From Gallionella sp. (GTDB lineage Bacteria; Pseudomonadota; Gammaproteobacteria; Burkholderiales; Gallionellaceae), in NCBI GenBank assembly GCA_025362155.1, contig JANYHX010000164.1, forward strand, positions 1-17,574: a stretch of 17,574 nucleotides of DNA, given 5' to 3'. Position 1 is the first letter of the stretch. Every line of letters begins with the position of its first letter. Of this stretch, positions 1 to 7,308 are shown one piece after another. A program made the translations under genes and the position numbers. A model generated the notes under the pieces. That model was given only the letters and a program-made list of their open reading frames with translations. It ran no database searches and had not been told where the DNA came from.

Positions 1-121
1 TGCCGTACTGTTATCACCGGCGTGCGCCAGTTTCGATATGTTCCGTAACTATAAACATCGTGCTGAAGTGTTCATTCAATCAGTTCATGAGTTGGAAAGG
101 GAGGATATATGGCATCGCTAA
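1..121 (+). CDS. murD: UDP-N-acetylmuramoylalanine--D-glutamate ligase MurD, C-terminal end (partial)
   Basis: Only the last 39 codons are present. The frame starts at base 2 and ends at the TAA at 119-121. The peptide contains [18 protein letters not shown], the conserved C-terminal block of MurD (family form [18 protein letters not shown]), which is part of the third Mur ligase domain. MurD is the cytoplasmic ligase that adds D-glutamate to UDP-MurNAc-L-Ala. Its stop lies 13 bases inside ftsW, so the two genes overlap and are probably translationally coupled. This matches the usual dcw order murD-ftsW-murG. Confidence 0.9.
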
Positions 122-1482
122 CAACTATCAAGAATCGCATGACAGAAAACTTGCAAATCGCTAACTGGTTTAAATGGCTGCCCTCGTTGGCATTGCCTAA
201 TGGCGGTAATTTACCCGTGGGCAATACAAATGGAGAAGCAACGCGACGGCGCTTTCATCCACCGCCTTTCGCCGCACCCGCAGGGGGTACGCCGATGGGT
301 GCCCGGGGGTTTCACCCCCACCCTTTCGCTGTCAAAACGCGCGCCCGGCCATCTCCGGCACAATTCGATGAAGTATTGATCTGGGTCTGGATAGGGCTGC
401 TGGCACTCGGTTTGGTGATGGTGTATTCCGCGTCAATTGCCACCTCTGAGGCGAACAAATTTACTGGCTATCAATCGTCCTATTATTTGTTGCGGCACGG
501 GGTGTTTATTGCTACGGGTTTGCTGGCCGCGTTGTTTGCCTTCCAGGTGCCAGTACAGACCTGGCAAAAGTATGCGCTATATTTATTTTTGATAGGCGGG
601 GCGCTGCTGTTGCTGGTGCTGATTCCGGGTATCGGGCGGGAAGTGAATGGTAGCCGCCGCTGGTTGTCCTTTTTCGTTATTAACGTACAACCCTCGGAGC
701 TAATGAAACTGAGCGCGGTACTGTATGCCGCCGATTACACCGTGCGTAAAGGCAAGGTAGGACATTTATTCAAGAAAGCTTTTGTGCCGATGTTGGCGGT
801 GATGGTATTGATCGGCGGCTTGCTGTTGCAAGAACCCGATATGGGTGCGTTCGTGGTGATCCTGTCGATAGCTTTCTGCACCTTATGGCTGGGCGGTTTT
901 AACATCAAGGTGTTCGCTGCGCTGCTGGTGACATTGCCGCTGGCATTCACGGCCTTGATACTTTCTTCGCCCTATCGGATGCAACGCGTCATCGGTTTCA
1001 TGGATCCCTGGTCAGACCCCTATGGCAAGGGCTATCAACTGAGTCATGCGCTGATCGCTTTCGGGCGAGGTGAGTGGCTGGGCGTGGGCTTGGGCGGCAG
1101 TGTCGAAAAATTATTTTATTTGCCGGAAGCACACACCGATTTTCTGATGGCGGTGATTGCGGAGGAATTAGGCCTGGTCGGCGTGGCCGCAGTGATCGCC
1201 CTGTTTGCAGTGCTGGTGGTGCGCGCCTTTCGTATCGGGCGCGATGCGGCTTTACTGGACCGCCGCTTCTCGGCCTTGGTTGCGCAGGGGATCGGGGTCT
1301 GGATAGGCATGCAGGCAATGATCAATATCGGCGTGAACATGGGCGTGCTGCCAACCAAGGGATTGACCCTGCCGTTCCTGAGTTTCGGCGGTAGCGGTAT
1401 TGTGGTGAATTGCATTGCCGCAGCCCTGTTGCTAAGAGTGGATTATGAGAACAGAAGGATTGCGCGGGGACTGCCGGTATGA
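109..1482 (+). CDS. ftsW: Peptidoglycan glycosyltransferase FtsW with an extended N-terminus
   Basis: FtsW is a SEDS-family integral membrane glycosyltransferase that polymerises lipid II at the division septum with its partner FtsI. The SEDS core starts near residue 84 ([25 protein letters not shown]) and runs through about ten hydrophobic segments. Visible family landmarks are NGSRRWL near 180, QPSELMK near 195, LLQEPDMG near 240, the periplasmic stretch [14 protein letters not shown] near 344 and the end block [16 protein letters not shown] near 415. The start at 109 is supported by an AAGGGAGG Shine-Dalgarno at 97-104 and by the overlap with murD. At 457 residues it is about 75 longer than usual. 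The extra length is all N-terminal, lies before the first helix, and carries a duplicated proline-rich peptide (see the repeat at 251-329). The function call is secure; the role of the extension is unknown. Confidence 0.96.
251..329 (+). repeat. Direct repeat pair inside the ftsW N-terminal extension
   Basis: Positions 251-272 and 308-329 are ungapped 22-base direct repeats with 17 identities by eye. They are read in frame as RFHPPPFA and GFHPHPFA. The 35 bases between them are rich in short G and C runs, including GGGGG and CCCCC at 305-319 that could pair. The block lies in a proline- and glycine-rich part of the protein that ordinary FtsW proteins lack. An inserted repeat element read as protein is the likeliest explanation, but its ends are not clear. 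Confidence 0.5.
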
Positions 1483-1490
1483 GGCATCAG

Positions 1491-1594
1491 AGGACAGAGG
1501 ACGGGGGACAGACGACAGAGGTTTTGTCGCGGCTGCCCCGCGTCCTTGAAATATCGTGCCGCGCAGCAGCGCATAACAATCCGCCCTCTGTCCC
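1491..1594. repeat. GACAGA-type repeat in the ftsW-murG gap, with inverted partner
   Basis: The ftsW-murG gap is 124 bases, long for a dcw cluster. Positions 1491-1521 form a purine-rich 31-base unit of repeated GGACAGA motifs. A shorter inverted copy is at 1581-1594; its perfect core is GGACAGAGG at 1492-1500 paired with CCTCTGTCC at 1585-1593. The 31-base unit matches 7152-7182 inside ftsQ at 25 of 31 positions without gaps, and matches the reverse complement of 7278-7308 at 22 of 31. This marks a small dispersed family. No Shine-Dalgarno for murG is visible in the gap. Confidence 0.65.
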
Positions 1595-1606
1595 ACGAAA
1601 CCCGTA

Positions 1607-2671
1607 ATGAGCTACTCCATACTCATTATGGCCGGCGGCACCGGCGGCCATATTTTCCCTGCCTTGGCAGTGGCTGACATTTTGCGCTTGCAGGGATGGC
1701 GGGTAACCTGGCTGGGCGCGCCAAACAGCATGGAAGCGGAGCTGGTGCCCAAGCATGGTTATACGCTGGCGTGGGTACGTTTTTCCGGGGTGCGTGGCAA
1801 AGGGTGGTTGCGCTGGTTACAGTTGCCGTTCGATATGTTGATTGCATTGTGGCAGAGTGCGGTCGCGATATTTCGTACCCGTCCCGACGTGGTGCTGGGC
1901 ATGGGCGGATACATCACTTTCCCGGGCGGCATGATGGCGGCTTTACTGCGTCGCCCGCTGGTGATACATGAGCAAAATTCTATTGCTGGATTGAGCAATA
2001 AATTGCTGGCGCGCATTGCGCAAAAAATTCTCAGCGGTTTTCCCGAGGTGTTGCCGCACGCCATATGGTGTGGTAATCCGGTGCGCATCGAAATTGCCGC
2101 TTTGCCTGATCCGCAGCAACGCTATGGCGTGCGCAACGGCAAGCTGAATGTGCTGGTGGTGGGCGGCAGTCTGGGTGCCCAGGCGATCAATGAAGTAGTG
2201 CCACGAGCGCTCGCGTTGTTGCCGCCCGCGCTGCGCCCCAATGTGTTGCACCAAACCGGCAAGCAACATTTCGCTGCGGTGCAACGTTTATATCAGCAGC
2301 TGGATGTGCAAGCCGAGATTAAACCGTTCATGGATGAAATGGCCAAACACTATGCCAATGCCGACCTGGTGATTTGTCGCGCCGGTGCGCTGACGATCGC
2401 GGAGCTTGCCGCTGCGGGCGTGGCGAGCATTCTGATCCCGTTCCCGTTCGCGGTGGACGATCACCAGACCTACAATGCGCGCTTTCTTTCCGATCGCGGC
2501 GCGGCAGTGTTGCTGCCGCAAAGCGAAATGACTGTGGAGAAACTCGCGCAATTACTGCGCGATTCGACCCGCGAAAAATTATCGGTGATGGCACAACAGG
2601 CGCGCAGCATGGCAAAGGCCGACGCGGCGCAGCGAGTGGCGCAGGTATGCGCAGAATTGGCTGGAAAATGA
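1607..2671 (+). CDS. murG: Lipid II synthase MurG (UDP-GlcNAc:undecaprenyl-PP-MurNAc-pentapeptide GlcNAc transferase)
   Basis: MurG is a peripheral membrane GT-B glycosyltransferase. It adds GlcNAc to lipid I on the inner face of the membrane, giving lipid II for FtsW. The N-terminal glycine-rich loop GGTGGHIFPALAVA is at residues 10-23, and the second-domain loop GGSLGAQAINE is near 186. The UDP-GlcNAc site appears as CRAGALTIAELAAAG near 256-270, followed by IPFPFAVDDHQTYNA. The length of 354 residues is normal and, unlike ftsW, murC and ftsQ, there is no insertion. The ATG at 1607 fits the family N-terminus. No good Shine-Dalgarno precedes it, and the gap upstream is taken up by a repeat. 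Confidence 0.97.
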   Translation: MSYSILIMAGGTGGHIFPALAVADILRLQGWRVTWLGAPNSMEAELVPKHGYTLAWVRFSGVRGKGWLRWLQLPFDMLIALWQSAVAIFRTRPDVVLGMGGYITFPGGMMAALLRRPLVIHEQNSIAGLSNKLLARIAQKILSGFPEVLPHAIWCGNPVRIEIAALPDPQQRYGVRNGKLNVLVVGGSLGAQAINEVVPRALALLPPALRPNVLHQTGKQHFAAVQRLYQQLDVQAEIKPFMDEMAKHYANADLVICRAGALTIAELAAAGVASILIPFPFAVDDHQTYNARFLSDRGAAVLLPQSEMTVEKLAQLLRDSTREKLSVMAQQARSMAKADAAQRVAQVCAELAGK

Positions 2672-2682
2672 AAAAACAATTC

Positions 2683-2759
2683 TGTCCACGAAAAACACGA
2701 AAGGCACGAAATAAAACCGTGGTTTGTTTTGTTCATGCCTTTCGTGTTTCTCGTGGACA
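2683..2759. repeat. Large hairpin repeat (CCACGAAAAACACGAAAGG family) between murG and murC
   Basis: The arms at 2683-2706 and 2736-2759 are 24 bases each with one mismatch, around a 29-base loop, giving a very stable stem. The motif CCACGAAAAACACGAAAGG resembles a repeat I have seen in gaps of unrelated bacteria; this is from memory and unchecked. It starts 12 bases after the murG stop and ends 14 bases before the murC start, so it fills the gap. The right arm is not followed by a T-run, so it is not a typical terminator, although the stem could affect mRNA stability or murC translation. Confidence 0.8.
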
Positions 2760-2773
2760 AATGGGGTTGAGAG

Positions 2774-4420
2774 ATGAAACATAAAGTCAAACATCTCCAC
2801 TTCGTTGGCATCGGCGGCGCAGGCATGAGCGGTATTGCCGAGGTGCTGCTCAATCTTGGTTTTCAAGTGAGTGGTTCGGATCTCAGCCAGAGTGTGGCGA
2901 CCAAACGCCTCAAGAAACTGGGTGCGACGCTCTACCTCGGCCATGCTGAGCAGAACCTGACCAATGCCGACGTGGTGGTGATCTCCACGGCCGTGAGTCA
3001 GGATAATCCCGAAGTGCTGGCGGCGCGTGCCCGGCACATTCCAGTGGTGCCGCGCGCGATGATGCTGGCCGAGCTGATGCGCTTGCGCCAAGGCATCGCC
3101 GTGGCCGGTACGCATGGCAAAACCACCACCACTTCGTTGACCGCCAGCATTTTGGCCAAGGGCGGCTTCGACCCCACTTTTGTGATTGGCGGCAAGCTGA
3201 ACAGCAGCGGCAGCAACGCCAAACTCGGCACGGGTGAATTTATTGTGGTCGAGGCGGATGAGTCCGACGCTTCATTTCTGTATCTGCAACCGATACTGGC
3301 GGTAATCACCAACATCGACGCCGACCATATGGAAACTTACGATCACGATTTCGAAAAGCTCAAGCAGGCGTTCGTGGACTTTGTCGGGCATTTGCCATTT
3401 TATGGGATGGCCATGTTATGCATAGATGATGCCCATGTGCGCGAAATTCTGCCGCGCATCAGCAAGCCGGTCACCACTTATGGCATCAGCGAGGGCGCGC
3501 AAATCCGTGCCGTCGATGTGCGCCATCAGAGTGGTCAGATGCGCTTCACTGCGCAATGCCGCCAGAATGGAACGCCAAAGGATTTGGACATCACGCTGAA
3601 TCTGGCCGGAGTGCATAACGTACTAAATGCGCTCGCCGCCATCGCCATTGCATTGGAATTGGGCGTGGCGGATGAAGCGATTATCTCGGCCCTCGCGGAA
3701 TTCCAGGGCGTGGGCAGGCGCTTCCAGCGTTATGGGGAGGTAGCCTTGCCGGAATACCCCCTCTCCAACTCTGATGGAACAACTGATAACACTACTAGCC
3801 ATCTGACTAACCCAGCAAAAGACGCTGGGCAAGTCATTGGTTATAGCCATTCGACTAAGCCCGCAAGCGGGCAAGTCGCTGGTTACCCCCCGCAAGCGGG
3901 GAGAGCGGAGCGAGGGGAGCGAAGCCGGGCAATCGTCCCCTCTCTTAAAAGCAGGAGAGGAGGCTTTACCTTAATCGACGACTACGGCCATCATCCGGCA
4001 GAAATGGTCGCGACGCTGGCAGCAGTGCGCGGCGCGTTTCCCGGTCGGCGTTTGGTACTGGCATTTCAGCCGCATCGTTATACCCGCACGCGCGATTTAT
4101 TCGAGGACTTTGTGAAAGTGTTGTGCAGCGTAGATGCGCTGGTGTTGGCGGAAGTCTATGCCGCAGGCGAGGCAGTCATAGTCGGCGCAGATGGGCGCGC
4201 CCTGATGCATGCCTTGCGTGTAGCGGGGCAGAGCGAAGCGGTGTTTGTCGAGGATATTCAGCAGATGCCAGCTGCGATAATGCAAATGGCACGCGATGGC
4301 GATGTGGTCATCACCATGGGTGCGGGTTCGATCGGCTCCATCCCGAATAATTTGTTGGGAAAAAGTGATGTCGATGCAACCGGCAAAATACCCGCGCTAC
4401 AGGGTGCGGCGTTTGGATAA
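2774..4420 (+). CDS. murC: UDP-N-acetylmuramate--L-alanine ligase MurC with an interdomain insertion
   Basis: MurC is the cytoplasmic ATP-dependent ligase that adds L-alanine to UDP-MurNAc, the first step of stem-peptide synthesis. The N-terminal substrate domain opens with [17 protein letters not shown] near residue 10. The ATP loop GTHGKTTT is near 113-120, [10 protein letters not shown] is near 157, and [13 protein letters not shown] is near 178. The C-terminal domain opens with [13 protein letters not shown] near 395 and ends with [14 protein letters not shown]. At 548 residues it is about 60-80 longer than usual. The excess lies between [13 protein letters not shown] and [11 protein letters not shown], a spot where the family has only a few residues, and is made of tandem and palindromic repeats (see 3753-3964). 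All catalytic motifs are intact, so the enzyme is probably active. Only a weak GA-rich Shine-Dalgarno precedes the ATG. Confidence 0.96.
3753..3964 (+). repeat. Composite in-frame repeat insertion in murC
   Basis: About 210 bases with no counterpart in ordinary murC are inserted in frame at the boundary between the central and C-terminal domains. Two tandem units lie at 3796-3843 (48 bases) and 3844-3885 (42 bases). Both are multiples of three and are read as [16 protein letters not shown] and [14 protein letters not shown]. Three hairpins follow in line: 3811-3816 with 3824-3829, 3859-3864 with 3867-3872, and 3888-3893 with 3896-3901. The block is edged by CCCCTCTCC near 3758-3766 and by a CCCCTCTC / GGAGAGG pair near 3937-3962, which resemble the CTCCCGCTTGCGGGAG family seen at 6341 and 6931. 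The exact ends are estimates. Confidence 0.7.
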
Positions 4421-4423
4421 GCC

Positions 4424-5353
4424 ATGGATATGAGTGAGCTAAAACACTTTGCCAACTCCACCTTGCGCGGCACGTTGAGCCAAAATGTGCCGATGAGCAA
4501 GCATACCAGCTGGCGCGCGGGCGGTATGGCCGAGCGTATCTACCAGCCCGCCGATCTTGAGGATTTGCTGGAGTTCCTGCGCGGTGTGGCAGTGGATGAG
4601 CCACTTTATGCGCTGGGTTTAGGCAGTAATTTATTGGTGCGCGATGGCGGTTTGCGCGGCACGGTGTTATTGCTGCATGCGGCTTTGAGTGCATTACATT
4701 TAACCGAGGACGGTAGCGTGTATTGCGAGGCGGGTGTGCCCGGAGCGAAGCTGGCGCGTTACGCGGCACTGCACCATCTGCACGGTGCGGAATTTTTTGC
4801 CGGTATCCCCGGCACGCTGGGCGGCATGCTGGCGATGAATGCCGGTTGTTATGGCAGCGAAACCTGGGAAAAAGTGCTGCGCGTGCAAACTGTGGATAGG
4901 CACGGGGAAGTGCATATACGCACCGCCGCTGATTATGAAATTGGCTATCGGCATGTCGCGAAACTTGCCAGCAGAAATGTACAGGAAGAATTTTTTCTCG
5001 CCGCGTGGCTGCAGTTTCCGCGCGGCGACGAGGAAGCCGCTCGGCAAGGCATCAAAGCATTATTAAGCAAGCGCATCGCTACCCAGCCTTTAAATTTACC
5101 GAATGCCGGTTCGGTGTTTCGCAATCCGCCTGGCGACCATGCGGCGCGGTTAATTGAGCAGTGCCGGCTAAAAGGCCGGCAGATTGGCGGCGCGCAGGTG
5201 TCGGAAAAACATGCCAACTTCATCGTCAATACCGGCGCTGCGACTGCGACGGATATCGAAAATCTGATTAATGAAATCCAGGCCACGGTGCAGCAGCAAA
5301 CCGGGGTAAGACTGCAATGCGAAGTGCGCATTGTTGGAAAAGCTAGGAACTAG
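4424..5353 (+). CDS. murB: UDP-N-acetylenolpyruvoylglucosamine reductase MurB
   Basis: MurB is the cytoplasmic FAD enzyme that reduces UDP-GlcNAc-enolpyruvate to UDP-MurNAc using NADPH. FAD-domain motifs are [13 protein letters not shown] near residue 65 and [21 protein letters not shown] near 125. GYRH near 168 holds the expected active-site arginine. [19 protein letters not shown] near 226 holds the catalytic serine, and the C-terminal CEVRIVG holds the glutamate. At 309 residues it looks like the shorter MurB form rather than the roughly 340-residue E. coli form. It starts 3 bases after murC. A second ATG at 4430 is an equally possible start. Its last codons and its stop lie in the left arm of the repeat at 5340-5390. 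Confidence 0.96.
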
Positions 5354-5390
5354 AGGCTAGGGCTAGCCCCGAGTCTCTAGCCCCTAGCTT
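5340..5390. repeat. CTAG-rich inverted repeat spanning the murB stop codon
   Basis: The arms at 5340-5355 and 5375-5390 are 16 bases with two mismatches, around a 19-base spacer that itself contains GGCTAGGGCTAGCCCC. The left arm contains the last codons of murB (A-R-N) and its TAG stop, so the repeat forms the end of the gene. The unit is dense in CTAG, a tetramer often rare in proteobacterial DNA, which suggests an origin different from its surroundings. The right arm ends 9 bases before the ddl ATG, and no Shine-Dalgarno for ddl remains visible. Confidence 0.7.
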
Positions 5391-5399
5391 CTAAATTGA

Positions 5400-6323
5400 A
5401 TGGATCAAATGAATAAATTTGGAAAAGTTGCGGTGTTATTCGGCGGACGCTCTGCCGAGCGCGAGGTCTCGCTGAACAGCGGCGCGGCGGTGCTTGCGGC
5501 ACTGTTGCGTAGCGGTGTGGATGCCTATCCGTTTGATCCGGCCGTGCAGAATTTGCAGGCACTGGTGGATGATGGTTTTGACCGTGCTTTTATTGCGCTG
5601 CACGGACGCTATGGCGAGGACGGCACGGTGCAGGGTGCGCTGGAATTATTGGGTATTCCCTATACCGGCAGCGGGGTGATGGCTTCCGCGCTCGGCATGG
5701 ATAAATGGCGTACCAAGCTGGTGTGGCAGGCAGGCGGGCTGCCGATTCCGGATTATGCGCTGCTTGATGAGCGCAGCGATAGTCAGGCGATTGTAAAGCA
5801 ATTGGGCTTGCCGCTATTTGTAAAACCCGCCAATGAAGGTTCGAGTGTAGGTATTAGCAAAGTGAAAGCAGCGAGTGAATTACAGGACGCATATCGGGTC
5901 GCCGCCAAGTACGACAAGTTGGTACTGGCAGAAAGTTTTATCGGCGGCGGCGAATACACCGTGGCTATTTTGGGTGAACAGGCGTTGCCAGTGATCAAGA
6001 TCGAAACGGCCAACGAGTTCTATGATTACGAAGCCAAGTATTTACGCAATGACACGCGCTATTTGTGCCCGAGCGATCTGAATGCAGCGCAGGAAGCCGA
6101 GATGCAGCGCCTCGCCAAACAGGCTTTTGCGCTGATCGGCGGGCAAGGCTGGGGGCGTGTGGATTTTCTGAAAGATGAGGCAGGCAAGGCCTATTTACTC
6201 GAAGCCAACACCTCGCCGGGCATGACTGACCATAGCCTGGTGCCGATGGCGGCGCGGCAGGCGGGAATAAGTTTCGAGCAACTGGTGGTGCGAATTCTGG
6301 AGCTGGCGGGGGTTAACAAATGA
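5400..6323 (+). CDS. ddlB: D-alanine--D-alanine ligase
   Basis: This is an ATP-grasp enzyme that makes D-Ala-D-Ala, the dipeptide added to the peptidoglycan stem by MurF. Family signatures are [17 protein letters not shown] near residue 11, [20 protein letters not shown] near 73, [15 protein letters not shown] near 140, [11 protein letters not shown] near 182 and the closing [21 protein letters not shown] near 264. The last includes the Mg-binding Glu/Asn and the serine loop. The length of 307 residues is normal. There are two in-frame ATGs, at 5400 and 5409; neither has a clear Shine-Dalgarno, and the conserved region begins after both. The dcw position next to ftsQ is where the ddlB paralogue usually lies. 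Confidence 0.96.
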
Positions 6324-6340
6324 TTTTCACGTTTGTCCTT

Positions 6341-6373
6341 TCTCCCGCTTGCGGGAGAGAGTTAGAGAGAGGG
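6341..6373 (+). repeat. CTCCCGCTTGCGGGAG repeat in the ddl-ftsQ gap
   Basis: A stem TCTCCCGC (6341-6348) pairs with GCGGGAGA (6351-6358) across a TT loop, followed by a purine-rich tail of GAG motifs to 6373. The 33-base unit matches 6931-6963 inside ftsQ at 29 of 33 positions without gaps. I recognise the type from memory as common in proteobacterial intergenic DNA, where its frames give peptides such as PLAGEGWGEG. It fills most of the 54-base gap between ddl and ftsQ. Confidence 0.8.
6364..6373 (+). promoter_or_regulatory. Shine-Dalgarno of ftsQ supplied by the repeat tail
   Basis: AGAGAGAGGG ends 4 bases before the ATG at 6378, and it is the only purine-rich stretch able to act as an ftsQ ribosome binding site. 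It is also the tail of the repeat at 6341-6373, so the repeat seems to have been taken over as the translation signal. An out-of-frame ATG at 6374 overlaps it and could compete. Confidence 0.5.
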
Positions 6374-6377
6374 ATGT

Positions 6378-7253
6378 ATGTGGGATAACGCGCCGCTACT
6401 TCGCAGCATTGCTAATACGCTGATCGCCCTCAGTGTGTTGGCCGTTTTGTATGGCGCGATTTATTACGCCGTGCATTTACCGGGATTATTTCCGCTGCGC
6501 AACGTGCGCTTGAGTGATACGCCGCAACGCGTGGACGCAACTGATGTATTGCAAGTAGTGCGCAGCGAGGTAAAGGGCAATTTTTTTACTGTGGATATTG
6601 AGCACTTAAGGCAAGCGTTGGAAAAATTACCATGGGTGCGCAGTGTCAGCATACGCCGTGAATTTCCGTATCGTTTGGTCGTTCAGCTGGAAGAACACCA
6701 GGCATTGGCGCGCTGGAACAACCGTTCATTGGTGAATCAGCATGGCGAGGTTTTTGTGGCCAAGAGTGAGCAAGCGCTGCCGAATTTTCTCGGCCCGGAG
6801 GATACGGCTGCTGACATCACGGCACGTTACACACAGTTCACCCAGCAACTTGCGTCGTTGAATAAAAGAGGGCTTCCCGATTGCCCCCTCTACCGCAGAG
6901 ATCAAAAAATTGTTTTTCTCGATCGCCCCCTCCCCCGCTTGCGGGAGAGGGTTGGGGAGAGGGGGTTTTCTGGGGGGAGGGTTGGGGAGGGGGACAGCGT
7001 GCGCGGTACGTGCTCAGATGTGAATTTGCAGGCGGCTCAGATTACCTTGTCGCCGCGCCGCGCCTGGCAATTGCGTTTGAGTAACGGCATGGTGCTGGAG
7101 CTGGGACGCGAGGACATGCAGCAACGTTTGGCGCGGTTTGTGGCTGTGCAGAGAACAGAAGACGGAAGGCAGAAGACAGAGGGAGCAATGTATGTGGACT
7201 TGCGCTATCGCAATGGGTTTGCAGTCAGGCAGGTTACAAATGTTAAAGAATAG
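6378..7253 (+). CDS. ftsQ: Cell division protein FtsQ carrying two in-frame repeat insertions
   Basis: FtsQ is a bitopic inner-membrane protein that links the FtsB/FtsL complex to the early divisome. There is a short cytoplasmic head, then one transmembrane helix (about residues 10-32, ANTLIALSVLAVLYGAIYYA). A POTRA domain covers about 37-107 (FPLRNVRLSD ... LPWVRSVSIRREFPYRLVVQLEEH). The FtsQ beta domain includes LGPEDTAAD and ITLSPRRAWQLRLSNGMVLELGRED, and ends with MYVDLRYRNGFAVRQ. At 291 residues it is about 40-60 longer than is typical. Residues 163-212 are a repeat-derived insertion rich in Arg, Gly and Glu, and residues 258-269 (QRTEDGRQKTEG) are a second, read from a GACAGA unit. Both lie in or beside the beta domain and keep the frame. 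No stop or frameshift is seen, so the gene is probably functional. Confidence 0.93.
   Translation: MWDNAPLLRSIANTLIALSVLAVLYGAIYYAVHLPGLFPLRNVRLSDTPQRVDATDVLQVVRSEVKGNFFTVDIEHLRQALEKLPWVRSVSIRREFPYRLVVQLEEHQALARWNNRSLVNQHGEVFVAKSEQALPNFLGPEDTAADITARYTQFTQQLASLNKRGLPDCPLYRRDQKIVFLDRPLPRLRERVGERGFSGGRVGEGDSVRGTCSDVNLQAAQITLSPRRAWQLRLSNGMVLELGREDMQQRLARFVAVQRTEDGRQKTEGAMYVDLRYRNGFAVRQVTNVKE
6926..6993 (+). repeat. CTCCCGCTTGCGGGAG repeat inside ftsQ, with partial tandem copy
   Basis: The unit at 6931-6963 repeats 6341-6373 with 29 of 33 identities, including the CCCGC-TT-GCGGG hairpin at 6934-6945. A second, truncated copy of its GGGAGGGTTGGGGAGG tail follows at 6975-6993. The frame used gives PLPRLRERVGERG then GRVGEG. 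Another possible inverted pair, AGAGGG at 6867-6872 and CCCTCT at 6886-6891, lies just upstream. The whole foreign stretch in ftsQ is about 6864-7013. Confidence 0.75.
7152..7182 (+). repeat. GACAGA-type repeat read as protein near the ftsQ 3' end
   Basis: This 31-base unit matches 1491-1521 at 25 positions without gaps. It is translated as QRTEDGRQKTEG between the FtsQ block QRLARFVAV and MYVDLRYRNGFAV, where related proteins have a short loop. It faces an inverted copy at 7278-7308, just beyond the ftsQ stop, so the pair brackets the end of the gene. Confidence 0.65.
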
Positions 7254-7277
7254 AGCGCGCGGAGAAATGGGATCGAT

Positions 7278-7308
7278 TTTCTGTCCTTTGTCTTGCGTCT
7301 TGTGTCCT
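7278..7308 (-). repeat. Inverted GACAGA-type repeat in the ftsQ-ftsA gap
   Basis: On the minus strand this unit matches 1491-1521 at 22 of 31 positions without gaps. On the plus strand it is a pyrimidine-rich run (CTGTCCTTTGTCTTGCGTC) directly upstream of the ftsA ribosome binding site. Together with 7152-7182 it forms an inverted pair about 95 bases apart. The pair at 1491 and 1581 is arranged the same way, about 60 bases apart. Confidence 0.55.

Follow-up and report, generated by a model that had tools for sequence, protein, structure and literature searches.

Small hairpin repeat elements between and inside genes of the dcw operon of a Gallionella-like bacterium

Rickettsia palindromic elements (RPEs), 105-146 bp long and with 12-bp inverted ends, are short palindromic repeats found between genes and in frame in many unrelated conserved proteins, and the extra peptide is possibly neutral or slightly harmful (PMC2229807, PMC10969869). 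Likewise, intragenic repetitive extragenic palindromic (REP) sequences of the GTAG/CGTC type occur in Opitutus terrae, Thauera, Thioalkalivibrio and R. conorii; many encode 20-30 amino acids, some genes are hit twice, many repair genes are affected, and insertion into loops is proposed to be neutral (PMC3733652, the main text of which does not mention Gallionella). REPINs (REP doublets forming hairpins) are non-autonomous and amplified to many copies per genome (PMC3116915, PMC2817692), the genes of REP-associated tyrosine transposases (RAYTs) are flanked by their own REPs or by other inverted repeats (PMC3733652), and the insertion sequences ISPsy8, ISPa11, ISPpu9/10 and ISRm19/22 land in REPs (PMC1525189). 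Our comparisons with these systems are made by description. Here, we analysed a stretch of 17,574 nt (the window) on contig C138 of a Gallionella-like metagenome-assembled genome (MAG), which carries the dcw operon with the genes ftsW-murG-murC-murB-ddl-ftsQ-ftsA-ftsZ in this order. It is probable that small non-autonomous hairpin elements have colonised this operon; the best defined of them is named F here, and the other repeat families are also denoted by letters.

The ends of F were defined by comparing copies, and the unit reads GATGRAACWAC, an imperfect palindrome with a variable stem, and TTAT. From 100 further stretches around matches in genomes of the genus and from other loci, 178 copies were obtained, of which 169 are distinct. 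The distinct copies measure 60 nt (139), 59 nt (16), 54 nt (13) or 61 nt (1), the length being divisible by three in most of them. They mostly start with GATG, GATA or GGTG, 161 end in TTAT and 140 are preceded by CT; with the closest CT within 5 nt taken as the starting point, 132 copies measure 60 nt, 12 measure 54 nt and 12 have another length, and 13 have no such CT. The predicted fold is a three-part stem with compensatory changes at eight pairs among the 139 60-nt copies (for example, GC in 65, TA in 26 and CG in 15 at the pair 31-41), and two copies folded as single-stranded DNA on both strands gave z from -3.6 to -4.7. Filled and empty sites differ by exactly the unit, with neither duplication nor loss of the target. 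A classical miniature inverted-repeat transposable element, with a DDE transposase, terminal inverted repeats and target duplication, was rejected since the empty partners carry no duplication. The number of copies, the covariation and the hairpin folding characterise F as a palindromic dispersed repeat, and this evidence consists of whole-unit matches and not of loose word patterns.

The insert in murC (3757-3961, forward strand) is a nest, in which F2 lies in F1 and F1 in a CCCTC...GAGGG repeat (D). Comparison with loci L025, L028 and L100 delimits the left part of D (3757..3772), which is followed, after ..ACTCT, by the 5' part of F1, a 54-nt unit (3773..3784). F2, a full 60-nt unit (3785..3844; DNA fold z -4.6), enters F1 after ..ACAACT, the 3' part of F1 follows at 3845..3886 by sequence comparison, and the remainder of D on the right, together with more repeat-like sequence, extends to a conserved 13-residue stretch of the MurC alignment (3887..3961). 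Uninterrupted F1 occupies the same murC site in L025 and L028, and the same position of F2 in F1 recurs in L097. In the host genome (2.2 Mb in 330 contigs, 88% complete), the murC insert matches 34 places, its own among them and two through the D part alone, and the D palindrome occurs at nine places, two within the window, versus none for the control. A preliminary description of the window, made from its sequence, had named single-copy units as a finding that would refute it; the units are not single-copy, clearly so for D and the murC insert and less so for the families A, B, C and E described below, with just one or two further matches each (two for the A region, one for B, one for C and two for E).

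The relatives comprised 80 loci with a whole or partial dcw locus, compared gene by gene; three Gallionella MAGs share 97% FtsA identity with the window. MurC has 460-500 amino acids in 67 of 73 relatives, FtsQ 230-260 in 67 of 76, and FtsW 379-395 in 41 of 60, mostly about 387 with some start sites uncertain. The corresponding proteins of the window have 548, 291 and 457 amino acids and are exceeded by one MurC, one FtsQ and three FtsW. MurG, Ddl, FtsA and FtsZ are of ordinary length, as had been stated before and as the lengths in the relatives confirm. The 67 residues that the window's MurC has above the short form are placed at a single site between QRYGE and GGxFT, between the parts matching solved MurC (residues 3-324 and 395-528).

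The ftsW insert, located by alignment with relatives, adds 70 residues in frame between MASL and VKTR (121..330, forward strand) and holds the repeat E (GCCGATGGGTGCCCGGGGGTTTCACCCCCACCC, about 274-334). The sequences of L025, L020 and L021 read M(A/V)SLV(K/R)TRT..Q(F/Y)D without interruption, and different segments occupy the position in L014, L017 and L019. According to the FtsQ alignment, ftsQ carries an in-frame insert (6861..7019, forward strand, residues about 162-214) holding D at 6925-6993, and near its C-terminus an in-frame A repeat (7147..7184, forward strand) replaces the YPYSL.. of the relatives. The D copy within ftsQ folds no better than shuffles (z -0.4). In AlphaFold2 models of MurC and FtsQ (mean predicted local distance difference test score, pLDDT, of 75 and 77, from alignments of 17 and 16 sequences), pLDDT falls below 50 at MurC residues 329-393 and FtsQ residues 165-213 and 262-268; elsewhere it does so at MurC 142-146 and at both C-termini, and most remaining residues are confident. 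Judging from these models, the insert peptides of MurC and FtsQ are probably unstructured.

The presence of an insert at the same MurC site in many species could suggest old conserved protein that merely resembles repeats. This is very improbable, as among 74 MurC sequences (window included) 57 have a short form of 14-15 residues, four a 20-residue form and 11 a D/F-like insert at one site, L072 being unclear and L079 carrying an unrelated insert, and as intergenic DNA and unrelated genes contain these units too, in several reading frames. Moreover, the filled or empty state on a 67-taxon tree (L079 and L072 scored as filled, L028 and L066 left out) requires 11 changes, no better than shuffled labels (mean 10.3, minimum 7). 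Inheritance of the MurC insert by descent finds no signal in this tree, but the D+F1 insert common to the window, L025 and L028 and the mosaic of L013 and L025 (see below) point to an older insert combined with exchange or loss. The preliminary description had named conservation of the insertions across distant betaproteobacteria as evidence against mobile repeats and had suggested aligning ftsW, murC and ftsQ with relatives; the alignments revealed shorter, empty forms.

The same kind of insertion was found in other genes. A total of 48 open frames, not all of them genes, run through F with 70 or more codons to either side, in 42 of the 169 copies, and the two main readings are DGTTSHST..QVAGY (31 of the 48) and ITSDLAGV..SRMASSSI (10). 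Twenty F-bearing open reading frames (ORFs), picked by eye, were scanned against Pfam, and the protein names given here are read from its matches. F lies in frame inside or between domains in 17 of them: a match of one family spans F in six (BioF-, RfbB-, TsaD- and MurF-like proteins, a ResIII protein and an MFS transporter), F adjoins the best of two same-family stretches in six (MutM, IleRS, a Polysacc_synt_2 protein, an RND transporter, an SDR and a glucokinase), and F lies between different domains in five (like PolA, NuoG, GlnE, E2 and CobQ). The remaining three (L281, L286 and L214) are unclear, have F upstream of the domain or have no Pfam match. Together with murC, the 17 ORFs establish in-frame insertion in several unrelated conserved genes. 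In the host genome, three or more repeat-derived inserts stand in frame in one ORF (L097, G000:C161), identified by eye as a UvrD/RecB-like helicase.

F is like RPEs in being palindromic and in occurring between genes and in frame in unrelated conserved proteins, and the Rickettsia precedent of in-frame insertion that had been invoked earlier fits. Unlike RPEs, F measures 60 or 54 nt, usually follows CT and prefers other repeats as its target.

This preference is evident from the flanks. F enters D above all, and also A, H, I and F itself. With F removed, many junctions (^) read as dispersed repeats: ..AACCCT^CTCCCGC.. in D, ..CTGTCCTCT^GTCCTCTG.. in A, ..TGTGTTCTCT^GTGGC in H, ..CAATCCT^CAATCC.. 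in I, and GGATTCCCGCCT^GCGCGGGAATGACG and CTTCGACAGGCT^CAGGGCGAACGG in other repeats. At least three unrelated empty copies were found in the sequences analysed for 77 of 169 F junctions versus 22 of 999 control points placed 250-330 bp from F, and at least one for 112 of 169 versus 150 of 999, hits with homology beyond the junction having been removed; without this filter, at least one empty copy was found for 139 of 169 junctions versus 217 of 666. There are 32 F junctions that cluster with no other junction. In L072, F lies within the D repeat of the ddl/ftsQ gap, where the window's D is plain, and in L025 the murB/ddl junction has F within an ATCCTCA array. F is like REP-targeting insertion sequences in using small repeats as landing sites; unlike these full insertion sequences, it has 60 nt and enters several unrelated repeat families and itself. 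The view that this lineage tolerates or spreads several repeat families in the dcw operon is supported, and two things are to be added to it. The most abundant family, F, present twice in murC (3773-3886), had been missed, and repeats of one family insert into those of another (F into D, A, H and I, and also into F), so that a repeat tolerated inside a gene can serve as the entry point of the next element.

In many D copies F occupies nearly the same place, with clusters of 30 and 19, which would also be expected if homologous exchange were the main way in which F and D spread, with gene conversion between D copies and interspecies recombination of whole gene segments passing F on from the first D copy that it had entered. 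The murC site offers a further argument of this kind. The window, L025 and L028 all have F1 in D there; the sister locus of L025, L013, has the short form and differs from L025 by the entire D+F1 insert. The identity of L013 and L025 is 94-100% in murG, mostly 95-99% in murB, 82-92% in early murC and 78% just past the site; this fall within murC means that recombination may move alleles. From these sequences, an older insert with exchange or loss appears as likely as repeated gain at murC. As the main route of spread, however, homologous exchange is unlikely, because F sits in D in two CT registers (17 and 19 copies in one strict count) and is found in unrelated repeats (the GACAGAG, CACAGAG, ATCCTCA, GGATTCCCGCCT and CTTCGACAGGCT families) and in F itself. 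A more far-reaching proposal, which we put forward only tentatively, is that F would be a parasite of repeats, moved by a possibly non-Y1 single-strand recombinase reading CT in palindromic or word-array repeats. Repeats that essential genes already tolerate would then be ports of entry for further elements, and the extra segments of MurC, IleRS, PolA and other proteins would lengthen step by step through nesting.

In the colonisation explanation preferred here, F would be moved in trans by a precise recombinase, either single-strand (HUH/IS200-like) or of another type, and would be inserted after CT where the DNA is exposed or palindromic. Intragenic survivors would mainly be in-frame F copies in loops, which may survive because the added peptide is disordered. 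D tolerated in a gene, as in murC, would offer F a landing site, as F in turn would for further F; between genes, the permitted places would be the gene junctions, and several families may meet there for this reason. Elements of the IS200/IS605 type have a subterminal hairpin and insert precisely, on the 3' side of a short, constant target that is not duplicated. F has the same features (CT before 140 of 169 copies, no duplication, a hairpin), and by analogy its insertion resembles single-strand transposition of this type.

The hairpin, the precise insertion without duplication and the adjacent CT would also suit a REP-type element mobilised by a RAYT (Y1) transposase, as known from gammaproteobacteria, and Y1_Tnp is present in 35 of 41 genomes of the genus. 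The RAYT of E. coli reportedly cleaves at CT. We nevertheless consider this origin rather doubtful. F is like intragenic GTAG/CGTC REPs in being a repeat inside ORFs, but it has no GTAG or CGTC head: it ends in TTAT, a stem-adjacent CTAC (GTAG on the other strand) occurs in only 67 of 169 copies and CAAC in 74, and CGTC is found somewhere in 57 of the 169 units, on either strand. Similarly, F is like REPINs as a many-copy non-autonomous hairpin and unlike them in that no flanked RAYT gene was found: none of the 30 best-matching Y1 loci has the repeat-flanked Y1 gene that is typical of GTAG REPs. The only Y1 match of the host genome has no F within the surrounding 2.9 kb.

Several observations weigh against the colonisation explanation, and those on Y1 count against a RAYT as well. 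Among the 30 best-matching Y1 loci of the genus, two have F nearby and none has it on both sides (1.8-3.4 kb). F occurs without a Y1 match in the nearly complete genomes G063 (a single contig, 99% complete, with 30 F candidates of which 7 were scored) and G036 (99%, 12 matches), as well as in the less complete G022 and G034. F is not tied to any enzyme, and its movement is inferred from sequence comparison. The F sample was drawn from the best matches to one copy, with at most about 15 scored per genome, and is biased accordingly. Counts of loose word patterns across the dcw loci put A, G, H, I, J and L above their backwards controls and B and D about twofold above theirs, whereas F (14 versus 38) and C (1 versus 13) showed no excess. 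A stem of at least 8 bp exactly across the junction was found in 7 of 169 F copies versus a shuffled mean of 0.3, an excess so small that hairpin loops account for part of the F targeting only. Finally, repeats may be harmless places where F copies survive, so that survival bias contributes to the repeat preference.

F matched 35 of 61 genomes, all within the genus (37 genus genomes in all, own included), and no match was found in 24 genomes from other families of the order. Across the family of the window, 98 of 120 genomes had a match, and these represent 14 of 15 genera. As the host genome is a 330-contig MAG, an assembly or binning artefact has to be considered; it is a most improbable source of F, which is present in differently named projects (L025, L028, L035, L037 and L072) and in the single-contig genomes G063, G403 and G409. 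In IMG/VR, four contigs have a 16-nt F core, two of them the full F, one of which (L187) has phage-like genes. In this contig, which bears phage tail-like genes, F lies at a gene end (L187:5595-5656) and would provide the stop codon.

Turning to the gene junctions, the repeats reported previously in five gaps and inside ftsW, murC and ftsQ were all confirmed in the sequence. The ftsW/murG gap holds an A repeat (1491..1595, no strand) of GACAGAG words with period 7 and CTCTGTCC at the right end, and the murG/murC gap a B repeat (2683..2759, no strand) of CACGAAA words with period 9, which forms a hairpin (inverted repeat 88%, DNA fold z -8.5). A C repeat of inverted CTAG words (5340..5393, no strand) covers the end of murB and the murB/ddl gap, a D unit, CTCCCGCTTGCGGGAG, lies in the ddl/ftsQ gap (6338..6373, reverse strand), and a GACAGA unit of A in the ftsQ/ftsA gap (7278..7308, reverse strand). 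We also agree that two units occur both between and inside genes, namely the GACAGA unit (gaps 1491-1595 and 7278-7308; ftsQ 7147-7184) and the 33-base unit CTCCCGCTTGCGGGAG (6338-6373; ftsQ 6925-6993). A scan of the window against Rfam gave no family above the gathering score.

In the locus group of the window, junctions of at most 10 nt, overlaps included, make up 21 of 45 at ftsW/murG, 36 of 50 at murG/murC, 46 of 50 at murC/murB, 33 of 49 at murB/ddl, 47 of 52 at ddl/ftsQ and 3 of 53 at ftsQ/ftsA. With single-base shuffles as the null, a fold z below -3 was obtained for 31 of 58 dcw gaps of 60-220 nt versus 1 of 58 intragenic control segments; among the window's own gaps, murG/murC alone folds strongly (z -7.0; ftsW/murG -2.0, ftsQ/ftsA -0.3). 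Gaps of at least 40 nt match one of eleven word families in 54 of 74 cases versus 15 of 74 read backwards, a descriptive count since the families were defined on the same 74 gaps; the 20 gaps that match none are mostly at ftsQ/ftsA. The murB/ddl junction varies by species: the window has CTAG words, five loci have CACAGAG words and two have a GTAG-type REP. At murG/murC, an insertion resembling B is present in L015, L021 and L023, and the genes overlap in L013, L014, L025, L016 and L017. The B hairpin (window 2672-2773) is common to L015, L021 and L023, and closer relatives are without it, their genes overlapping by 4 nt; this patchy occurrence may reflect loss, exchange or parallel gain.

A looser A pattern with three mismatches gave 27 matches in the host genome versus 22 for the backwards control, which is nearly the identical string and hence uninformative. 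The word CACAGAGNN in three copies occurs in 22 of 299 Pseudomonadota genomes, with a maximum of 84 matches in one, and the backwards pattern matched once. Arrays of CACAGAGNN are abundant in G187 (84 matches) and G101 (27), genomes from other families of the phylum. At ftsW/murG, an L-type element (TTTCGGCG.AGGCTAA..TTAAGCC..CAAAA) is present in 12 of 24 gaps of at least 40 nt across the relatives. The gap has a reverse L-type unit (TTAGTC..CGCCGAAA) before the murG start in L014, L033, L037, L064 and L083; it is preceded in L014, L064 and L083 by a truncated duplicate of the murG start (MAGGTGGHIF), and L083 has the block repeated. From the sequence, these copies look like insertion with a regenerated gene start.

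The kind of element reported here, an in-frame palindrome as in Rickettsia, is already known, and in the literature examined, Rickettsia and a small set of further genomes are the cases treated. A limited literature search found no description of the F family, of its insertion after CT or of its repeat preference. For annotation, the peptides DGTTSHST..QVAGY or HPNPLP..GEGAN in proteins of these bacteria should be taken as repeat-derived. The family of the window is free-living and much sequenced, and it displays the stages of the process, empty, single and nested, in many conserved genes and with clean ends. Two matters thereby become accessible to direct tests, namely the identity of the enzyme that mobilises these elements and the possible origin of new protein segments from them.

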